The notes under the pieces were generated by a model. The model was not told where the DNA came from, made no database searches, and worked only from the letters and a program-made list of their open reading frames with translations. Shown here piece by piece: positions 7,144 through 45,676 of a DNA stretch of 48,502 nt (positions are counted from its first letter, which is position 1; the number at the start of each line of letters is the position of its first letter). Position numbers and translations under genes: made by a program. Source of the DNA: Cellulomonas sp. (lineage in GTDB: Bacteria; Actinomycetota; Actinomycetes; Actinomycetales; Cellulomonadaceae); the NCBI GenBank assembly GCA_031178625.1, contig JAPSIR010000005.1, positions 1 to 48,502 of the forward strand, read 5' to 3'.

Positions 7144-7187
7144 CACGACGACGGCCCCGGACCTGCAGGTCCGGGGCCGTCGTCGTG
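7144..7187. terminator. Perfect 44-bp palindrome, bidirectional terminator
   Basis: Bases 7144-7187 are a perfect inverted repeat centred on CCTGCAGG. It lies between the stops of the second STAS gene (plus strand) and the aldolase gene (minus strand), so it can terminate both convergent transcripts. No U tract is present on either strand. Confidence 0.9.
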
Positions 7188-7203: not shown

Positions 7204-8226
<1,023 letters not shown>

Positions 8227-8345: not shown

Positions 8346-8420
8346 GTGTCCACGGCGGACGGTGTCCGGCGTGCGCTCCACGGCGTGCAGACGTACGCCA
8401 GACCCCGTTCGTGGTGGGAC
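8346..8420. repeat. Dispersed palindromic element, copy A
   Basis: A 75-base imperfect inverted repeat with arms 8356-8375 and 8392-8411 (16 of 20 positions pair) around a 16-base loop. The same sequence recurs at 9577-9650 and 42893-42966. It lies between the aldolase gene and the stop of the DUF559 gene, and a G-rich stretch follows on its right side. Confidence 0.85.
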
Positions 8421-8447
8421 GTGGCCGTGGGGTGCTGCGTGGGCGGG

Positions 8448-9386
8448 TCATCGGGGACGTGGGAGCAGGGCTGCTCGGACGAGGGGGGCGACGGCTCGAC
8501 GGGACACGTCCGTGGACGTGACACGCAGGACCGTGTGGCCGAGGACCGCGAGGGCGTTCTGCCGGTGGCGGTCGTGCATGACGGCCGCCGGCACGTCGTG
8601 GAACTCGCGCCCGTCCACCTCCACGAGCAACCACGTGCTGTCCGCCCGCCGCCACGCCAGGTCGCAGCGCGCGACCTGCCGGCCGTCCGGCGCGCGGACG
8701 ACCGGCTGGAGCTCGTCCGGCGCGATGCCGGCGTCGACGCACTGCAGCCGCGCGAACGTCTCCAGCGGCGACTCCGCGCGGCGGTCGGCGAGCCCCCAGC
8801 ACGCGTGGAGACCCGCGGCCCCGCGACGCCCGCCCGTCGCGGCGCGGACGCGCGCCATCTCGGCGTCGGGCACGAGCCGTCGGTGCAGCACGTCGTCGAG
8901 CACGGCGACCGCGTTGTCGCGCGGGAGCTCCGGCAGCGCCTGGACGAGCGCCTCCGGCAACGGGGCGACGAAGGCTGCGCCGTACGGCCGCACGACGGTC
9001 GAGAACCGTCGCACCCGGATGCCGTCCCGTCCGGCCGTGTGCCGCAGGCCGCGCAGCACCACCTCGGGCGTGATCGTCGTGGGCAGACCGGCGACGCCGT
9101 GCAGGACCAGCGCGCTGGTCCCCACGGCCGCGGCTCCCGGGCCGTACGCCAGCACACCGGTCCACGCGGCGCGCCGACGTCGCAGCTCGGCACCGACGGG
9201 TGCGTGCGGGTCCACGACGTAGACCCCCGTCGTGGTGCGGCCCCAGCGGCCGGACCGCACGAGACGTCCCCGCCGGGCCTGTGCCACGCCGGCGACGTCG
9301 CACTGCGCGGCGGACACCAGCCCGCCCTGCGCCTCGGCGAGGCGGAGGAGCGAGTCGGGCAGCGGCAAGGACCGGGGCACGGGCAC
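8448..9386 (-). CDS. AbiEi-like / DUF559 domain protein, putative nuclease
   Basis: About 312 residues. The N-terminal part (LLRLAEAQGGLVSAAQCDVAGV, about residues 12-32; GRWGRTTTGVYVV) resembles the winged-helix start of AbiEi-type antitoxin-like proteins. The C-terminal 100 residues resemble DUF559, a Vsr/restriction-endonuclease-like fold: SPLETFARL, CDLAWRRADSTWLLVEVDG, then HDRHRQNALAVLGHTVLRVT. In that fold the first Glu, the Asp of CDLAW and the Glu of LVEVDG are candidate metal ligands. No toxin or partner gene is adjacent. GTG at 9386 or 9380 could be the start, and neither has a strong ribosome site. Copies of a palindromic element lie on both sides (8346-8420, 9577-9650). The function is unknown. 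Confidence 0.8.
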   Translation of the reverse strand: MPVPRSLPLPDSLLRLAEAQGGLVSAAQCDVAGVAQARRGRLVRSGRWGRTTTGVYVVDPHAPVGAELRRRRAAWTGVLAYGPGAAAVGTSALVLHGVAGLPTTITPEVVLRGLRHTAGRDGIRVRRFSTVVRPYGAAFVAPLPEALVQALPELPRDNAVAVLDDVLHRRLVPDAEMARVRAATGGRRGAAGLHACWGLADRRAESPLETFARLQCVDAGIAPDELQPVVRAPDGRQVARCDLAWRRADSTWLLVEVDGREFHDVPAAVMHDRHRQNALAVLGHTVLRVTSTDVSRRAVAPLVRAALLPRPR

Positions 9387-9576
9387 ACCCCACCCGCGCG
9401 GCGCGGAAGCGCGCCGGCACGGCCTCACGCCCTGTGGACCGCGGCGCCCCTCCACAACCGGTGGTCGGCTCGACCCCCGCCACGCAGCCTCGCCACCCGA
9501 CCACGCCCCACCCCCACGTCGCCCTACCGCCACCCTTCCCCATGCCGACGCGACACACGCCCCCCCGACTCCACCC
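9387..9576. other. Non-coding, pyrimidine-rich stretch upstream of DUF559 gene
   Basis: This stretch is C-rich on the plus strand with several short CCACCC-type runs. I see no credible open frame, RNA gene or clear promoter box. Together with the repeat and the G-rich tract to its right it makes a gene-free gap of about 360 bases (9387-9745). Confidence 0.5.
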
Positions 9577-9650
9577 CGTCCACGACGAGCGGGGCCTGGC
9601 GTGCGCTTCCGACGTGCCGGACGTACGCCGGGCCCCGTTCGCCACGAGAC
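9577..9650. repeat. Dispersed palindromic element, copy B
   Basis: A 74-base inverted repeat with arms 9586-9605 and 9622-9641 (17 of 20 positions pair). It matches copies A (8346-8420) and C (42893-42966) along its length, including the conserved core GGCGTGCG in the left arm and CCCCGTTCG in the right arm. It lies upstream of the DUF559 gene. Confidence 0.85.
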
Positions 9651-9690
9651 GGAGGCGAGGCAGCCGGACGGTGGGACGGGACGCCGAGGA

Positions 9691-9755
9691 GGCCAGGGGC
9701 GGGGGCAGGGGCGGGGGGCAGGGGCGAGAAGGGCAGGGCGTGGGGTCAGGGGTGG
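9691..9755 (+). other. G-run tract with G-quadruplex potential
   Basis: The plus strand carries at least six runs of four or more G separated by one to several bases, for example AGGGGCGGGGGCAGGGGC from 9695. The tract reaches into the last codons of the RNA methylase gene. On the coding (minus) strand it is C-rich. Confidence 0.55.
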
Positions 9756-10462
9756 GCGTGCGTGAGGGCCCACGTGTGCATCGCGATGGCCGCGGCGGCG
9801 CCCGCGTTCAGGGAGCGGGTGCTGCCGTGCTGCGTGATGTGGAGGACGACGTCGCAGGCGGCCTGCGCCTGCGGCGTCAGGCCCGTCGACTCCTGGCCCA
9901 GCAGCAGGACGCACGCGCGCGGCAGCGCGTACCCCTCGATCGGGACGGAGCCCGGGACGTTGTCGAGACCGACGACGGGCAGCCGGCCGCCGTCCGGCCC
10001 GGCCTCCGCCGCCCACGTCGCGAGCGCCGCTGCGTCGGGGTGGTGGTGCACGTGCAGGTACCGGTCGGTGACCATCGCGCCCCGCCGGTTCCAGCGCCGG
10101 CGGCCGACCACGTGCACGCCCGCCGCGTTGAAGGCGTTGGCGGTGCGCACCACCGAGCCGATGTTGAGGTCGTGCGCCCAGTTCTCGATCGCCACGTGGA
10201 ACGGGTTGCGGCGGGTGTCGAGGTCGGCGACGACCGCCTCGACGGTCCAGTAGCGGTACCGGTCCACGACGTTGCGGCGGTCGCCGTGCGCGAGCAGCTC
10301 GGGGTCGTAGCGTGGGTCGAGCGCCGAGCCGGGCCCCGCGACGCGCGGCCACGCGTCGGACCCGCCCGGCCACGGGCCGACGCCCACCTCGCGCTCGTCG
10401 TCGCCCGCCGCCCCGGGCAGCGCCCCGTCCGGCGTGGTCCCGTCGGTCCCCTCAGCGCTCAT
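9746..10462 (-). CDS. TrmH/SpoU family RNA methyltransferase
   Basis: A 238-residue SPOUT-fold enzyme that would 2'-O-methylate tRNA or rRNA using SAM. Motif 1 is NWAHDLNIGSVVRTANAF (around residue 84). Motifs 2 and 3 are LLLGQESTGLTPQAQAAC and ITQHGSTRSLNAGAAAAIAM, which form the knotted SAM site. The N-terminal 45 residues are low-complexity and acidic. The ATG at 10462 is the most upstream credible start. It lies 131 bases downstream of the GH51 gene on the same strand; no function links it to that operon. The exact target nucleotide is not deducible. Confidence 0.92.
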   Translation of the reverse strand: MSAEGTDGTTPDGALPGAAGDDEREVGVGPWPGGSDAWPRVAGPGSALDPRYDPELLAHGDRRNVVDRYRYWTVEAVVADLDTRRNPFHVAIENWAHDLNIGSVVRTANAFNAAGVHVVGRRRWNRRGAMVTDRYLHVHHHPDAAALATWAAEAGPDGGRLPVVGLDNVPGSVPIEGYALPRACVLLLGQESTGLTPQAQAACDVVLHITQHGSTRSLNAGAAAAIAMHTWALTHAHP

Positions 10463-41683: not shown

Positions 41684-41807
41684 CCCCGGTGACCGAACCG
41701 AGACCTTCCGGGGATTCGCCCGACTGCTGACCCCGGACGGGCGCGGGTGCTACGGTCGCAGCCGAAACTTGCGCAACGGCTGCGCAGGCGTGACCGAAGG
41801 GGACGCG

Positions 41808-42845
41808 GTGACCGCATCCACCGAACCGACGGGCGACGTGCGCGCGGTGACCATCGCGGACGTCGCGGCGCTCGCGGGCGTCTCGGTGCCCACCGTGTCC
41901 AAGGTCCTCAACGGCCGGGCCGACGTCGCACCCACCACGCGGGCCCGCGTCGAGGCGATCCTCGAGCAGCACAGCTACCGGCGCCGGCGTGCCCGCACGT
42001 CCACCGACCCGTCGCTCATCGACCTCGTCTTCCACGAGCTCGACAACGCGTGGGCGCAGGAGGTCATCAAGGGCGTCGAGGACGCCGCGTCCGCGCGCCG
42101 CGTCGGCGTCGTGCTGTCGGAGCTGGGCGGGTCGCACCGGCCGCAGCAGGACCTCATCGACGACATCCTCGCCCGCCGCCCGCTCGGCGTGCTGCTCGTG
42201 CTGTCGTCCCTCGACGCCACCCAGCGCCACCAGCTCGAGTCGCGGTCCATCCCGTTCGTCGTCGTCGACACGTGGGGCGAGCCGCCCGCCGGCGTGCCCA
42301 CCGTCGGCTCGAACAACTGGAACGGCGGGCTCATCGCCACGCGGCACCTGCTCTCGCTCGGGCACCGCCGCATCGGCGTCATCGCCGGCCCCGCCGACGT
42401 GCTCTGCTCCCGCGCGCGCGTCGACGGGTACCGCAGCGCCCTCGAGGAGGCGGGCATCCGGCCCGACCCGGCGCTCACCCGGTGGGGCGACTTCCACGTG
42501 CTCGGCGGGTACACGCACGGCATCGACCTGCTGTCGCGCCCCGACCGGCCGACCGCGATCTTCGCCGGCTCGGACTACCAGTCCCTCGGCGTCATGCGCG
42601 CCGCGCGCGAGCTCGGCCTCAGCATCCCCGAGGACCTCTCGGTCGTCGGGTACGACGACATCCCGCTCGCGCAGTGGCTCGGCCCGTCCCTGACGACCGT
42701 GCGGCAGCCGCTGCGCGAGATGGCCGCCACCGCCACGCAGATGCTGCTCAGCCTCGCCGGCGGCGAGCACCCCGCCAACCTGCGCATCGACCTCGCCACC
42801 GAGCTGGTGGTCCGCGAGTCCACGGCGCCGTACCGCACGGCCTGA
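41808..42845 (+). CDS. LacI-family regulator of the GH3-GH42 operon
   Basis: A 345-residue repressor. The helix-turn-helix is TIADVAALAGVSVPTVSKVL, with hinge sequence EAILEQHSYRRRRART. The sensor domain includes LIDLVFHELDNAWAQEVIKG, GSNNWNGGLIATRHLLSLGH and VVGYDDIPLAQWLGPSLTTV. The GTG at 41808 has GAAGGGG at good spacing; an upstream TTG at 41769 and GTG at 41790 are less likely. It diverges from the GH3 operon and sits next to that operon's operator, so it is the probable repressor. TTGCGCAA at 41769-41776, just upstream, may serve autoregulation. The effector is unknown, perhaps xylobiose. Confidence 0.94.
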   Translation: MTASTEPTGDVRAVTIADVAALAGVSVPTVSKVLNGRADVAPTTRARVEAILEQHSYRRRRARTSTDPSLIDLVFHELDNAWAQEVIKGVEDAASARRVGVVLSELGGSHRPQQDLIDDILARRPLGVLLVLSSLDATQRHQLESRSIPFVVVDTWGEPPAGVPTVGSNNWNGGLIATRHLLSLGHRRIGVIAGPADVLCSRARVDGYRSALEEAGIRPDPALTRWGDFHVLGGYTHGIDLLSRPDRPTAIFAGSDYQSLGVMRAARELGLSIPEDLSVVGYDDIPLAQWLGPSLTTVRQPLREMAATATQMLLSLAGGEHPANLRIDLATELVVRESTAPYRTA

Positions 42846-42892: not shown

Positions 42893-42966
42893 GTGTCCGT
42901 GGCGAACGGGGTCCGGCGTGCGTCTGCGGGCGCCGAAGCGCACGCCGGACCCCGTTCGCCGTGGAC
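42893..42966. repeat. Dispersed palindromic element, copy C
   Basis: This is the best-preserved copy. Arms 42901-42922 and 42939-42960 are 22 bases each and pair perfectly around a 16-base loop. It lies between the convergent LacI and GH95 stops, where it may also act as a terminator. A G/T-rich tract rich in GGTGGG follows to its right. Copies A and B are at 8346-8420 and 9577-9650. Confidence 0.9.
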
Positions 42967-43048
42967 GTCGGCGTGGGCGGCGGCGGTGGTGGGACGGTCG
43001 CGGTGGTGGGCGACGGTGGCGGTGGGCGACGGCAGGGGTGGGGCGGCG

Positions 43049-45676
43049 TCAGAGGGGGACCGTGACCGGGCTGCCCGCGGGGAGGTCGAGGCGGTGCCGC
43101 GCCGGGTCGTCGGTCGCGCGGACGCGGACCGCGGCCGGCCGGTCGGCGGTCAGCGCCGCGCGCGTCACGCGGCCCGCGCGCCACACCAGCTCCGTGACGC
43201 GCACGCCGCCGCGCAGGCGCAGGCCGCGGACGTGCCCGTCCGGCCACGCGGCCGGCAGCGCGGGCAGCAGGTGCACCTCGCGCACGCCGTCGGCGTCGAC
43301 GCGGTGCGCCTGGACCAGCGCCTCGGCGACGCCCGCGGTGAAGCCGAGGTTCCCGTCCACCTGGAACGGCGGGTGCGCGCACAGCAGGGACCGGTAGACC
43401 CCGCCCGCGTGCCGGGGCGTCGGGCCGTCGTGCGGACGCCCGGCGCGGGCGGCGTCGGCGAGGTCCTGGTCCACGGGGTGCAGGAACGCGTCGACGAGCG
43501 CCGCGACGCCCTTCGGGTCGCGCAGCCGCGCGCGCAGCGCGAGCCGCCACGCCAAGGACCAGCCGGTGGAGTCGGGGCCGCGCGCGTCCAGCGTGCGCCG
43601 GGCCGCCGCGGCGAGCGCCGGCGCCTGGTCGGGGTCGATCGACGTGCCCGGGAACACCCGGTACAGGTGCGACTGGTGGCGGTGCCCCGGCTCCGCGTCG
43701 GCGACGTCGGCCGACCACTCCGCGACGCGGCCGTCGGGCGCGACGCGCTCGGCGGGCAGCCGGTCGAGGGCGTCGTCGACGGCGGCCCGCAGGTCCGCGT
43801 CGTCGTCGCCCGCGACCGGGGCGAGGCGTCGCACGTGCTCCAGCAGGTCCCGGGTCATCGCCAGGTCCGACGTCGTCGAGACCCCGACGCTCGCCACCGT
43901 GCCGTCGGCGAGCAGGTACTGGTTCTCCGGGCTCGTGGCGGGCGCCGTGCCGAGCGACCCGTCCGGCAGCGGCACGAGCCAGTCGAGCAGGAACAGCGCC
44001 GCGCCGCGGACCACCGCCCAGTGCCGGCGCAGCGCGTCGTCGTCGCCGGTCCAGTCGTGGTGGTCGACGACGTGCCGCGCGAGCCACACGCCGCCGAACG
44101 GCCACGTCGACCAGCTCGCGCTGTCGCGGCCCGCGCCGACCGGCGCGCTGAAGCACCACGGGTCGCTGTTGTGGTGCGCCACCCAGCCGCGCGCGCCGTA
44201 GAGCTCGCGCGCCGTGCGCCGGCCCGCGACGGCGAGGCGGTCCAGCCACGCGAGCAGGGGCTCGTGGCACTCGGCGAGGTCGCCGACGAGGGTCGGCCAG
44301 TAGTTCATCTCCGTGTTGATGTTGATCGTGTAGTTGGCGTTCCACGGCGGCTGCACGTGCGGGTTCCAGATGCCCTGCAGGTGCATCGGCAGCGTGCCGG
44401 GCCGCGAGCCGGCGACGGTGAGGTAGCGGCCGTGCTGGAACGCGAGCACCGCGAGGTGCGGGTCGGCGGCGCCGCGGGCGTGCGCGACGAGCCGCGCGTC
44501 GAGCGGGGCGTCCGGCGGCACGTCGTCCGGCACGTCGGTCGCCGAGGCGCCGAGCCGCAGGTCGACGCGCCCCATGAGGGACCGGTGGTCGGCGACGTGG
44601 CGTGCCGGGACACCGTCGAGGTCGGGCAGGACGGCGGTCAGCCGGGCGACGGCGTCGGCGACGACACGGTCGGCGTCACCGTGCAGGCGCGCGTCGGCGA
44701 CGACGTGGTCGGTGGCCGTCGCCACGACGACGCGGACCCGCCCGGCGCCGGCGACCTCGACGGCGCCGTCCACCACGGCCGTGCCGCCCGGTCCCCCGTC
44801 CGCGACGACCGCGAGCGCGACCGCCGCCAGCACGCCCGGCCCGTCGTACGACACCGGGTCGGGGGCGTCCAGGTAGTCCGGCAGCACGCGCGCGGGCATC
44901 CGCACCAGCGCGACGACACCCACGGCGCCGGCCGGCAGCGGCACGGACGGCGCGGCGGGCGGTCGCACCCACGGGTGCGGGCTGGTGAGGGCCACGACCA
45001 CCGGCGCGGGGCCGGCCGCGCCGGTGGGACGCGTGCCGGTGGGGTCGGTGCCGGTCGGGTCGCTGCCGGTCGGTTCGGTGCCGGGCACCGGCGCCTGCGC
45101 GCGGCGGTCGAGCAGCAGGACGCCGTCGGGGTGGCTGACGAGCACGTCCTGCCGCCACGCCGTGCCGTCCGCCGCTGTCCAGGCGGTCGTCGCCACGCCG
45201 TCGCCGAGGTGGAGCGTGCGGCGGTACGCCCGCGGCTCCCCCGCCTCGGGGTGGGTCAGCAGCACGTCGACGAGCGGCTGGTTCGCCTGCGTGTAGCCGG
45301 ACTGCAGGCGGCTGACGTGCTGCTCCGCCGCGGGGACGTCGCCATCGGCCAGCGCGCGGCGTGCCGCGGTCAGCACCGCGCCGGGGCCGTCGCGGCCCGC
45401 GAGCGGCGCGAGGTCGGGCGCGCCGGGCGCCCCCGTCCAGCACGTGTCGTCGTTGACCTGCAGCCGCTCGTGCGCGGTGCCGCCGGCGACCATCGCGCCG
45501 ATGCGCCCGTCGCCGACCGGGAACCCGTCGGTCCACTCCCGCGCCGGCGCGTCCAGCCGCAGCACGAGACCGTCGTCCCGGGGACCGGTGGCCCCTTCCG
45601 CGACCGGCTCACCCGCGACCGGCTCCGCGCCGGACCGGTGCTGCCCGTCGCCCGTCCGGTCCACCGCGTCGCCCAT
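43049..45676 (-). CDS. GH95 alpha-L-fucosidase / alpha-L-galactosidase
   Basis: An 875-residue inverting glycosidase. The N-terminal beta domain starts WTDGFPVGDGRIGAMVAGG. The catalytic (alpha/alpha)6 barrel has NANYTININTEMNYWPT, whose Asn residues assist the catalytic water, and downstream WSLAWRLALRARL and FQVDGNLGFTAGVAEAL. GH95 members cleave alpha-1,2-L-fucose or alpha-L-galactose; which one applies cannot be read here. No signal peptide is visible. The ATG at 45676 follows GGAGG. The N-terminal domain carries a fourfold (S/T)xPTG repeat encoded at 45020-45079. It is monocistronic and converges with the LacI gene across palindromic copy C. Confidence 0.94.
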   Translation of the reverse strand: MGDAVDRTGDGQHRSGAEPVAGEPVAEGATGPRDDGLVLRLDAPAREWTDGFPVGDGRIGAMVAGGTAHERLQVNDDTCWTGAPGAPDLAPLAGRDGPGAVLTAARRALADGDVPAAEQHVSRLQSGYTQANQPLVDVLLTHPEAGEPRAYRRTLHLGDGVATTAWTAADGTAWRQDVLVSHPDGVLLLDRRAQAPVPGTEPTGSDPTGTDPTGTRPTGAAGPAPVVVALTSPHPWVRPPAAPSVPLPAGAVGVVALVRMPARVLPDYLDAPDPVSYDGPGVLAAVALAVVADGGPGGTAVVDGAVEVAGAGRVRVVVATATDHVVADARLHGDADRVVADAVARLTAVLPDLDGVPARHVADHRSLMGRVDLRLGASATDVPDDVPPDAPLDARLVAHARGAADPHLAVLAFQHGRYLTVAGSRPGTLPMHLQGIWNPHVQPPWNANYTININTEMNYWPTLVGDLAECHEPLLAWLDRLAVAGRRTARELYGARGWVAHHNSDPWCFSAPVGAGRDSASWSTWPFGGVWLARHVVDHHDWTGDDDALRRHWAVVRGAALFLLDWLVPLPDGSLGTAPATSPENQYLLADGTVASVGVSTTSDLAMTRDLLEHVRRLAPVAGDDDADLRAAVDDALDRLPAERVAPDGRVAEWSADVADAEPGHRHQSHLYRVFPGTSIDPDQAPALAAAARRTLDARGPDSTGWSLAWRLALRARLRDPKGVAALVDAFLHPVDQDLADAARAGRPHDGPTPRHAGGVYRSLLCAHPPFQVDGNLGFTAGVAEALVQAHRVDADGVREVHLLPALPAAWPDGHVRGLRLRGGVRVTELVWRAGRVTRAALTADRPAAVRVRATDDPARHRLDLPAGSPVTVPL
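45020..45079. repeat. Four tandem 15-bp units inside the GH95 gene
   Basis: Units begin at 45020, 45035, 45050 and 45065, with consensus GCCGGTCGGGTCGGT. On the coding strand they give TEPTG, SDPTG, TDPTG and TRPTG, a flexible Thr/Pro linker inside the N-terminal beta domain. Confidence 0.9.

Follow-up and report, generated by a model that had tools for sequence, protein, structure and literature searches.

Dispersed palindromes linked to an AbiEi-Vsr type nuclease gene in Cellulomonas and related genera

In this work, we describe a dispersed palindrome, present in three copies (A, B and C) within a 48,502-nucleotide stretch of a Cellulomonas genome, hereafter the window, and a nuclease gene (8448-9386) bracketed by two of these copies, A and B, which lie 1.2 kb apart. 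The copies of the dispersed palindrome reported by a first-pass annotation of the window proved to be real, but their bracketing of the nuclease gene, the main finding of this work, had been missed. The link between nuclease and palindrome is general, recurring in soil bacteria of many genera of the order, and the sequence of each palindrome is particular to its nuclease. Searches of open-licence PMC papers turned up no report that connects a nuclease of this kind with palindromes. We consider it rather probable that the two form a two-part system, in which a nuclease dimer spreads or maintains the copies of a palindrome of about 60 bp, and in which these copies are tolerated, and perhaps used, as terminators.

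The palindrome and its copies

Copy C is a 76-bp palindrome, whose inner 60 bp consist of two perfect 22-bp arms and a 16-base centre. Its predicted RNA fold has an energy of -69.3 kcal/mol (z -8.2), equalled by none of 200 shuffles, and C ranks third among the 56 inverted repeats of the window. The description of C as a third copy with the layout of A and B, perfect 22-base arms and a loop of about 16 bases was borne out, its 22 out of 22 pairs being beyond chance, as was its position between two convergent genes, the stops being those of a LacI-type regulator and a GH95 glycosidase (Table 1). A G-rich tract to the right, also described, was not seen as a feature common to the palindrome family. 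A perfect, loopless 22-bp inverted repeat, unrelated in sequence to the palindromes, is found directly behind another gene at 7144-7187 of the window, and is probably an ordinary terminator.

Table 1. Position of the features discussed, in window coordinates.
Feature	Position	Strand	Evidence or remarks
Class II fructose-bisphosphate aldolase gene, adjoining copy A; landmark of the insertion site in relatives	7204..8226	-	Pfam E 2.3e-75
Copy A, 3' side of nuclease gene	8346..8421	.	R1 E 1.3e-13; 16/22 inner pairs
Nuclease-fusion gene, 312 aa; predicted AbiEi-like DNA-binding part (residues ~5-201) and Vsr/I-Bth0305I-like nuclease part (205-312)	8448..9386	-	Pfam, PADLOC, AlphaFold2
Copy B, 5' side of nuclease gene	9576..9651	.	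R1 E 1.6e-13; 18/22 inner pairs
SpoU-type RNA methylase gene, adjoining copy B; other border of the site	9746..10462	-	Pfam E 2.3e-22
LacI-type regulator gene	41790..42845	+	stop 42845, 55 bp before core of C
Copy C, solo palindrome between convergent genes	42893..42968	.	22/22 inner-arm pairs; model R1 E 1.6e-16
Left inner arm of C (proposed half-site)	42901..42922	.	
Centre of C, 16 bases	42923..42938	.	
Right inner arm of C (proposed half-site)	42939..42960	.	
GH95 glycosidase gene	43049..45676	-	stop 43049, 88 bp beyond core of C

Eight copies were retrieved from the whole genome by BLAST, and a covariance model built from them added a ninth, the next match having an E value of 0.24. These nine copies in 3.43 Mb (the assembly is 78.7% complete), three within the window and six on other contigs, do not bear out the hundreds per genome which had been extrapolated; the presence of three in one window is partly due to A and B flanking one and the same gene. 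All nine fit a 22-16-22 arrangement, with 16 to 22 arm pairs, the spacing being imposed in the fit. Mean identity is 0.81 for the arms and 0.47 for the centres, in agreement with the earlier remark that arms are conserved while loops differ. In several genomes, identity within a genome ranges from 0.81 to 0.93 for arms and from 0.47 to 0.69 for centres, which are less alike than the arms, yet not random in all genomes. A fixed 16-base centre was rejected as a general rule, being imposed by the models and the fit: palindromes found at other nucleases by a model-free procedure measure 40-80 bp, with other loops or none.

The same layout, with other arm sequences, was recovered in relatives with two further models, at first in G006, G011 and G031. 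Among 297 genomes of the order, model R2 matches 12, in 6 of 94 genera, and model R3 matches 42, in 20 genera. Arms differ between lineages, with both sides changing together, although the rows compared were found with structure models and are biased towards pairing. This cross-lineage covariation is strong, but was discarded as support, since pairing itself had served to find or choose the rows (those of A8 either came from models or had 18 or more of the 22 pairs). Compensatory arm changes, proposed as a check by the first-pass annotation, are seen between species, in rows from structure models, but do not exceed shuffles within this genome, where eight copies gave 6 two-sided pairs against a shuffled mean of 5.5. 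When symmetric two-arm changes are counted over all nine copies, 5 are found against 0.97 expected, along with 34 one-arm changes. Symmetric changes exceed independence in Oerskovia douganii (9 against 0.23 expected, at the top of the ranked list) and number 5, 8 and 3 in three other genomes, against 0.13, 0.24 and 0.18 expected, again at the top of the ranked lists.

A search of Rfam returned nothing above the gathering score at the hairpins of five loci. Three copies of another, short inverted repeat, GGCGTACGCAC...GTGCG(T/C)ACGCC-like, were noticed in the window's genome (G000:C158:11956-11991, C167:41495-41530 and C374:23541-23576), and perhaps make up a second palindrome family.

The nuclease and its flanking palindromes

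Pfam matches of the protein encoded at 8448-9386 all fall below the cut-offs (REase_MTES_1575, E 1.1e-7; AbiEi_4, 5.2e-4; DUF559, 0.0025), and NCBIfam models are matched by none of 29 homologs. The PADLOC AbiEi model recognizes the window protein with an E value of 3.3e-11, and all four proteins tested match it. In the AlphaFold2 model (mean pLDDT 93.8), residues 205-312 superpose on the catalytic domain of I-Bth0305I (3r3p; Z 11.3 over 93 residues) and on Vsr (Z 8.8), while residues 5-201 superpose on an AbiEi antitoxin (6y8q; Z 8.6; Foldseek E 1.1e-5). The protein is thus predicted to join a DNA-binding part of AbiEi type to a nuclease part resembling Vsr and I-Bth0305I. Residues D242, E256 and D258 are the same in all 29 homologs compared. 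Two more close paralogs are encoded in the same genome (G000:C79:1198-2151 and C374:325-1263; loci L264 and L294), with no palindrome scoring at least 14 within 400 bp.

Palindrome pairs enclosing the same kind of gene were also found in relatives, 1.2 kb apart in G006, G031 and G125, and 1.1 kb apart in G181; in G031 and G125, the nuclease so flanked is more distantly related. G156 has two adjacent copies, both upstream of such a gene. In the genus of G031 and G125 (loci L090, L091, L049, L055 and L057), the arms are prolonged into 19-bp direct repeats in tandem, several copies having two units per side.

The association was measured in two samples of nuclease genes, by scoring palindromes in their neighbourhood without any model, with a threshold score of at least 16 within 300 bp and full flanks required; the resulting counts are free of pairing-based selection. 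The first sample derives from a scan of named genomes with a protein alignment, which yielded 48 loci, 42 of them in Cellulomonas, Oerskovia, Cellulosimicrobium, Isoptericola, Promicromonospora, Antribacter, Serinibacter and a Nanopelagicales assembly. A palindrome is found upstream of 18 of its 41 nuclease genes, downstream of 21 and on both sides of 13, as compared to 1, 11 and 0 for 91 control genes of the same loci; five distant nuclease homologs have none upstream and one downstream. For the second sample, 297 genomes were searched with a profile, and 60 of 66 rows, down to E 1.3e-66, were retained, 59 of which with full flanks; the six rows left out comprised three previously analysed loci and three copies that were incomplete or broken. 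Here palindromes lie upstream of 21 nuclease genes, downstream of 29 and on both sides of 14, against 0, 1 and 0 for 59 controls. The samples overlap in some genomes, and 3 of 75 loci were dropped as duplicates. Palindromes scoring at least 18 number 39 in 38 kb of 400-bp flanks, and 16 in 331 kb elsewhere. At the thresholds used, about half of the nuclease genes have no palindrome, including the two paralogs of this genome on contigs C79 and C374.

At the level of whole genomes (nuclease at E <=1e-40, palindrome at R3 E <=1e-4), 28 of the 297 carry both nuclease and palindrome, 14 the nuclease only, 14 the palindrome only and 241 neither (Fisher p 9e-19). Without the training genomes, as far as these were recognized, the figures become 19, 14, 13 and 241 (p 6e-13). 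A palindrome-model match in the absence of a nuclease hit at E <=1e-20 was recorded in G035, G050, G112, G140, G157, G167, G232, G243, G286 and G312, whose palindromes may be orphans, belong to an enzyme more distantly related, or be matches by chance. In the 25 genomes reached through named loci, R3 matches all 22 related ones (8-130 rows, both strands counted), some palindromes of which had gone into building the model, and none of the 3 distant ones.

Each nuclease tends to have a palindrome of its own. In 18 loci with a palindrome on either side, upstream and downstream elements of one locus match with a mean score of 38.1, against 12.7 across loci, a difference reached in none of 10,000 permutations; L106 is an exception. 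Paralogs within one genome do not share their palindrome (similarity of at least 0.5) in any of 26 pairs, the highest similarity being 0.32; these pairs come from the second sample only, since in the first each named locus of a species had been taken as a separate genome. Sharing, at the same level, is seen in 34.5% of 87 pairs of close nucleases, and the overall correlation of nuclease with palindrome similarity is low (Mantel r 0.16; 3 of 2,000 permutations as high). Sharing among close nucleases can be explained by common descent of the whole locus, which cannot, however, account for the matching pair peculiar to each paralog.

Gene ends, proposed mechanism and known systems

Genomic localization was evaluated on gene calls made by a purpose-written codon-usage script, rather than a standard gene finder. 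Among the 39 top-ranked copies of five relatives, 24 lie between convergent genes, 14 between tandem genes and none between divergent ones, one being unresolved. In 19 of the 24 convergent cases neither stop codon is more than 34 nt away, and in 13 of the 14 tandem ones the distance to the upstream stop does not exceed 28 nt; by comparison, 51 other gaps of the same loci comprise 4 convergent, 27 tandem and 20 divergent. An earlier set of 35 copies included 11 convergent, 18 tandem, 5 divergent and 1 unresolved, and of 16 tandem cases (two more were set aside) the copy was nearer the 3' end in 15. The bias is weaker in this genome, with 3 convergent, 4 tandem and 2 divergent copies. The palindromes, then, sit where terminators sit.

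This supports in part the suggestion, made for copy C, that it may double as a terminator: placement at gene ends, with no divergent case among 39 in relatives, agrees with such a role, while the weaker bias in this genome and the lack of a T-tract after the copies, whose hairpin is GC-rich, do not. Sense-strand mismatches, counted in three groups, are equally often G.T (49) and A.C (52); together with the missing T-tract, this leaves nothing that points to selection at the RNA level, and the proposed selection on the hairpin, as far as RNA is concerned, is not supported. It seems unlikely, on the whole, that the palindromes are simply two-way terminators, kept by selection for ending transcription, and that the nuclease gene merely happens to have one on each side. 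Their distribution and the nearby stops are what such an explanation predicts, but terminators need no fixed sequence, and the arms are both highly similar within a genome and particular to one nuclease. Neither a T-tract nor a G.T excess is present, 5 of 35 copies, and 2 of 9 in this genome, are in divergent position, and no account is given of the upstream palindromes at 18 of 41 nuclease genes, as compared to 1 of 91 controls.

The two-part system which we favour can be outlined by analogy with its presumed components. I-Bth0305I forms a dimer on a target of close to 60 bp (PMC3943268), and AbiEi proteins are described as binding inverted repeats, through which they regulate themselves (PMC7319586). 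On these grounds, a homodimer could occupy the palindrome, with one AbiEi-like part on each arm, taken as a half-site, and the two nuclease parts at the centre. If the centre were then broken or nicked, and mended with another copy as template, the palindrome would be copied, and so would a gene lying between two palindromes. Copies behind genes would be tolerated, being harmless there, and may act as two-way terminators. Free cutting of its own palindromes would break the chromosome many times and endanger the host, a danger which nicking, or action on extruded or mismatched palindromes alone, would avoid. A bolder version, which we advance only tentatively, would define a new class of elements, selfish or domesticated, in which an AbiEi-guided Vsr-type dimer copies its own palindrome of about 60 bp to gene ends and keeps the arms alike, each paralog having a private palindrome, and the palindromes become two-way terminators of the host; under this version, the repair-type fold of the nuclease suggests nicking of mismatched palindromes, with one arm corrected from the other.

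It might also be imagined that the palindromes are operators, through which the AbiEi-like part would keep its own gene, among others, repressed, the nuclease part being secondary. Autoregulation of AbiEi proteins through inverted repeats (PMC7319586) and the presence of an upstream palindrome at 18 of 41 and 21 of 59 nuclease genes would fit, but dispersed copies lie behind genes rather than before them, the nuclease genes have a palindrome downstream as often as upstream, and the invariance of D242, E256 and D258 in all 29 homologs indicates that the nuclease part is kept; we regard this explanation as very improbable.

Several known systems share features with the palindrome-nuclease pair. 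It works like REPIN-RAYT, without being a member: REPIN-RAYT, as described in PMC3733652 and PMC8049555, likewise features a population of intergenic palindromes, mostly behind genes, with conserved arms and a variable centre, and one associated enzyme gene flanked by palindromes. The enzyme is a different one here, an AbiEi-Vsr type nuclease; no GTAG tag was seen, and no Y1/HUH transposase was found in five of five genomes, which is why we do not assign the system to REP/RAYT. An excess of G.T, reported for REPs (PMC3733652), is also missing here. CGTC-tagged REPs are similar in that they are said to lack a dedicated transposase (PMC3733652), but the same account gives units of 20-40 bp and, where it deals with them, reports no link to a nuclease.

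The EDxHD homing endonuclease I-Bth0305I has the nuclease fold of the predicted model (Z 11.3), and the palindrome, at about 60 bp, fits its dimer target in length only (PMC3943268); the gene described here is, in contrast, free-standing, with an AbiEi-like DNA-binding part, two whole flanking palindromes and dozens of genomic copies. AbiE toxin-antitoxin systems share the DNA-binding part and fold of the AbiEi antitoxin (PADLOC E 3.3e-11; Z 8.6) and have inverted repeats as AbiEi targets (PMC7319586), a role which is putative for the fusion protein. Here, however, a nuclease part follows the AbiEi-like part and, at the window locus, no AbiEii toxin gene was noticed beside the nuclease gene, whose neighbours encode the aldolase and the SpoU methylase.

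The system looks like an undescribed counterpart of repeat-plus-enzyme systems known elsewhere. REPIN-RAYT has so far been the main example of an extragenic palindrome population kept with one enzyme gene; if our reading is true, a second, unrelated enzyme shows the same genome layout, and such systems arose more than once. It would also give a role to a protein family now named by domain alone, and open to experiment the question of why palindromes are kept at the ends of bacterial genes. The private pairs of palindrome and protein within one genome are also a ready-made set for studies of DNA reading by AbiEi-type proteins.

Insertion site, inheritance and signs of mobility

Of 40 relatives examined at the aldolase site, G006 alone carries the nuclease there. 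In 38 of the 39 lacking it, no palindrome scoring at least 15 is found near the aldolase gene (one of the 39 ends early, at a contig end), which argues that the gene did not simply enter a site already holding a solo copy. Flanks at the aldolase site are too diverged to define exact cassette ends. A clean empty site was sought and rejected, sister species carrying other DNA at this position. In G011 (L187), different DNA and another predicted gene occupy the place of the nuclease cassette found in G006 and the window, the site being an insertion hot spot.

Target-site duplications were searched for at 34 copies, with no excess of 2-9 nt direct repeats, a search by which decayed duplications would be missed. 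The Y1 transposase (PF01797) was found in none of five genomes with the element, while the control search was positive in 5 of 14 known genomes. That the copies are decayed MITE/REP-type miniature transposons, moved by an unrelated transposase with the nuclease gene as a passenger, agrees with their being short, palindromic, dispersed and decaying, but is hardly credible in the face of these two negative results and of the nuclease being the enzyme which accompanies palindromes in many genera. Insertion into the loop of an older terminator was also considered and rejected: outward pairing beyond 3 bp is not clearly copy-specific, 30 of 500 swaps being as high.

Comparison of the sister species G006 and G011 showed that four of the six copies of the former are found at the same places in the latter, and have therefore been inherited for long times. 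At the sites compared, the element changes as fast as its flanks, or faster; shared sites and a fast-changing element thus give no sign of recent movement in that lineage. A solo palindrome of G011 (L058; G011:C1:3107432-3107507) marks the join of a difference or rearrangement of about 11 kb between the two species, and offers no clean empty site either. In their complete chromosomes, the six copies of G006 and the five of G011 are clustered, at 1.39-2.23 and 1.91-3.11 Mb of 4.15 Mb, respectively.
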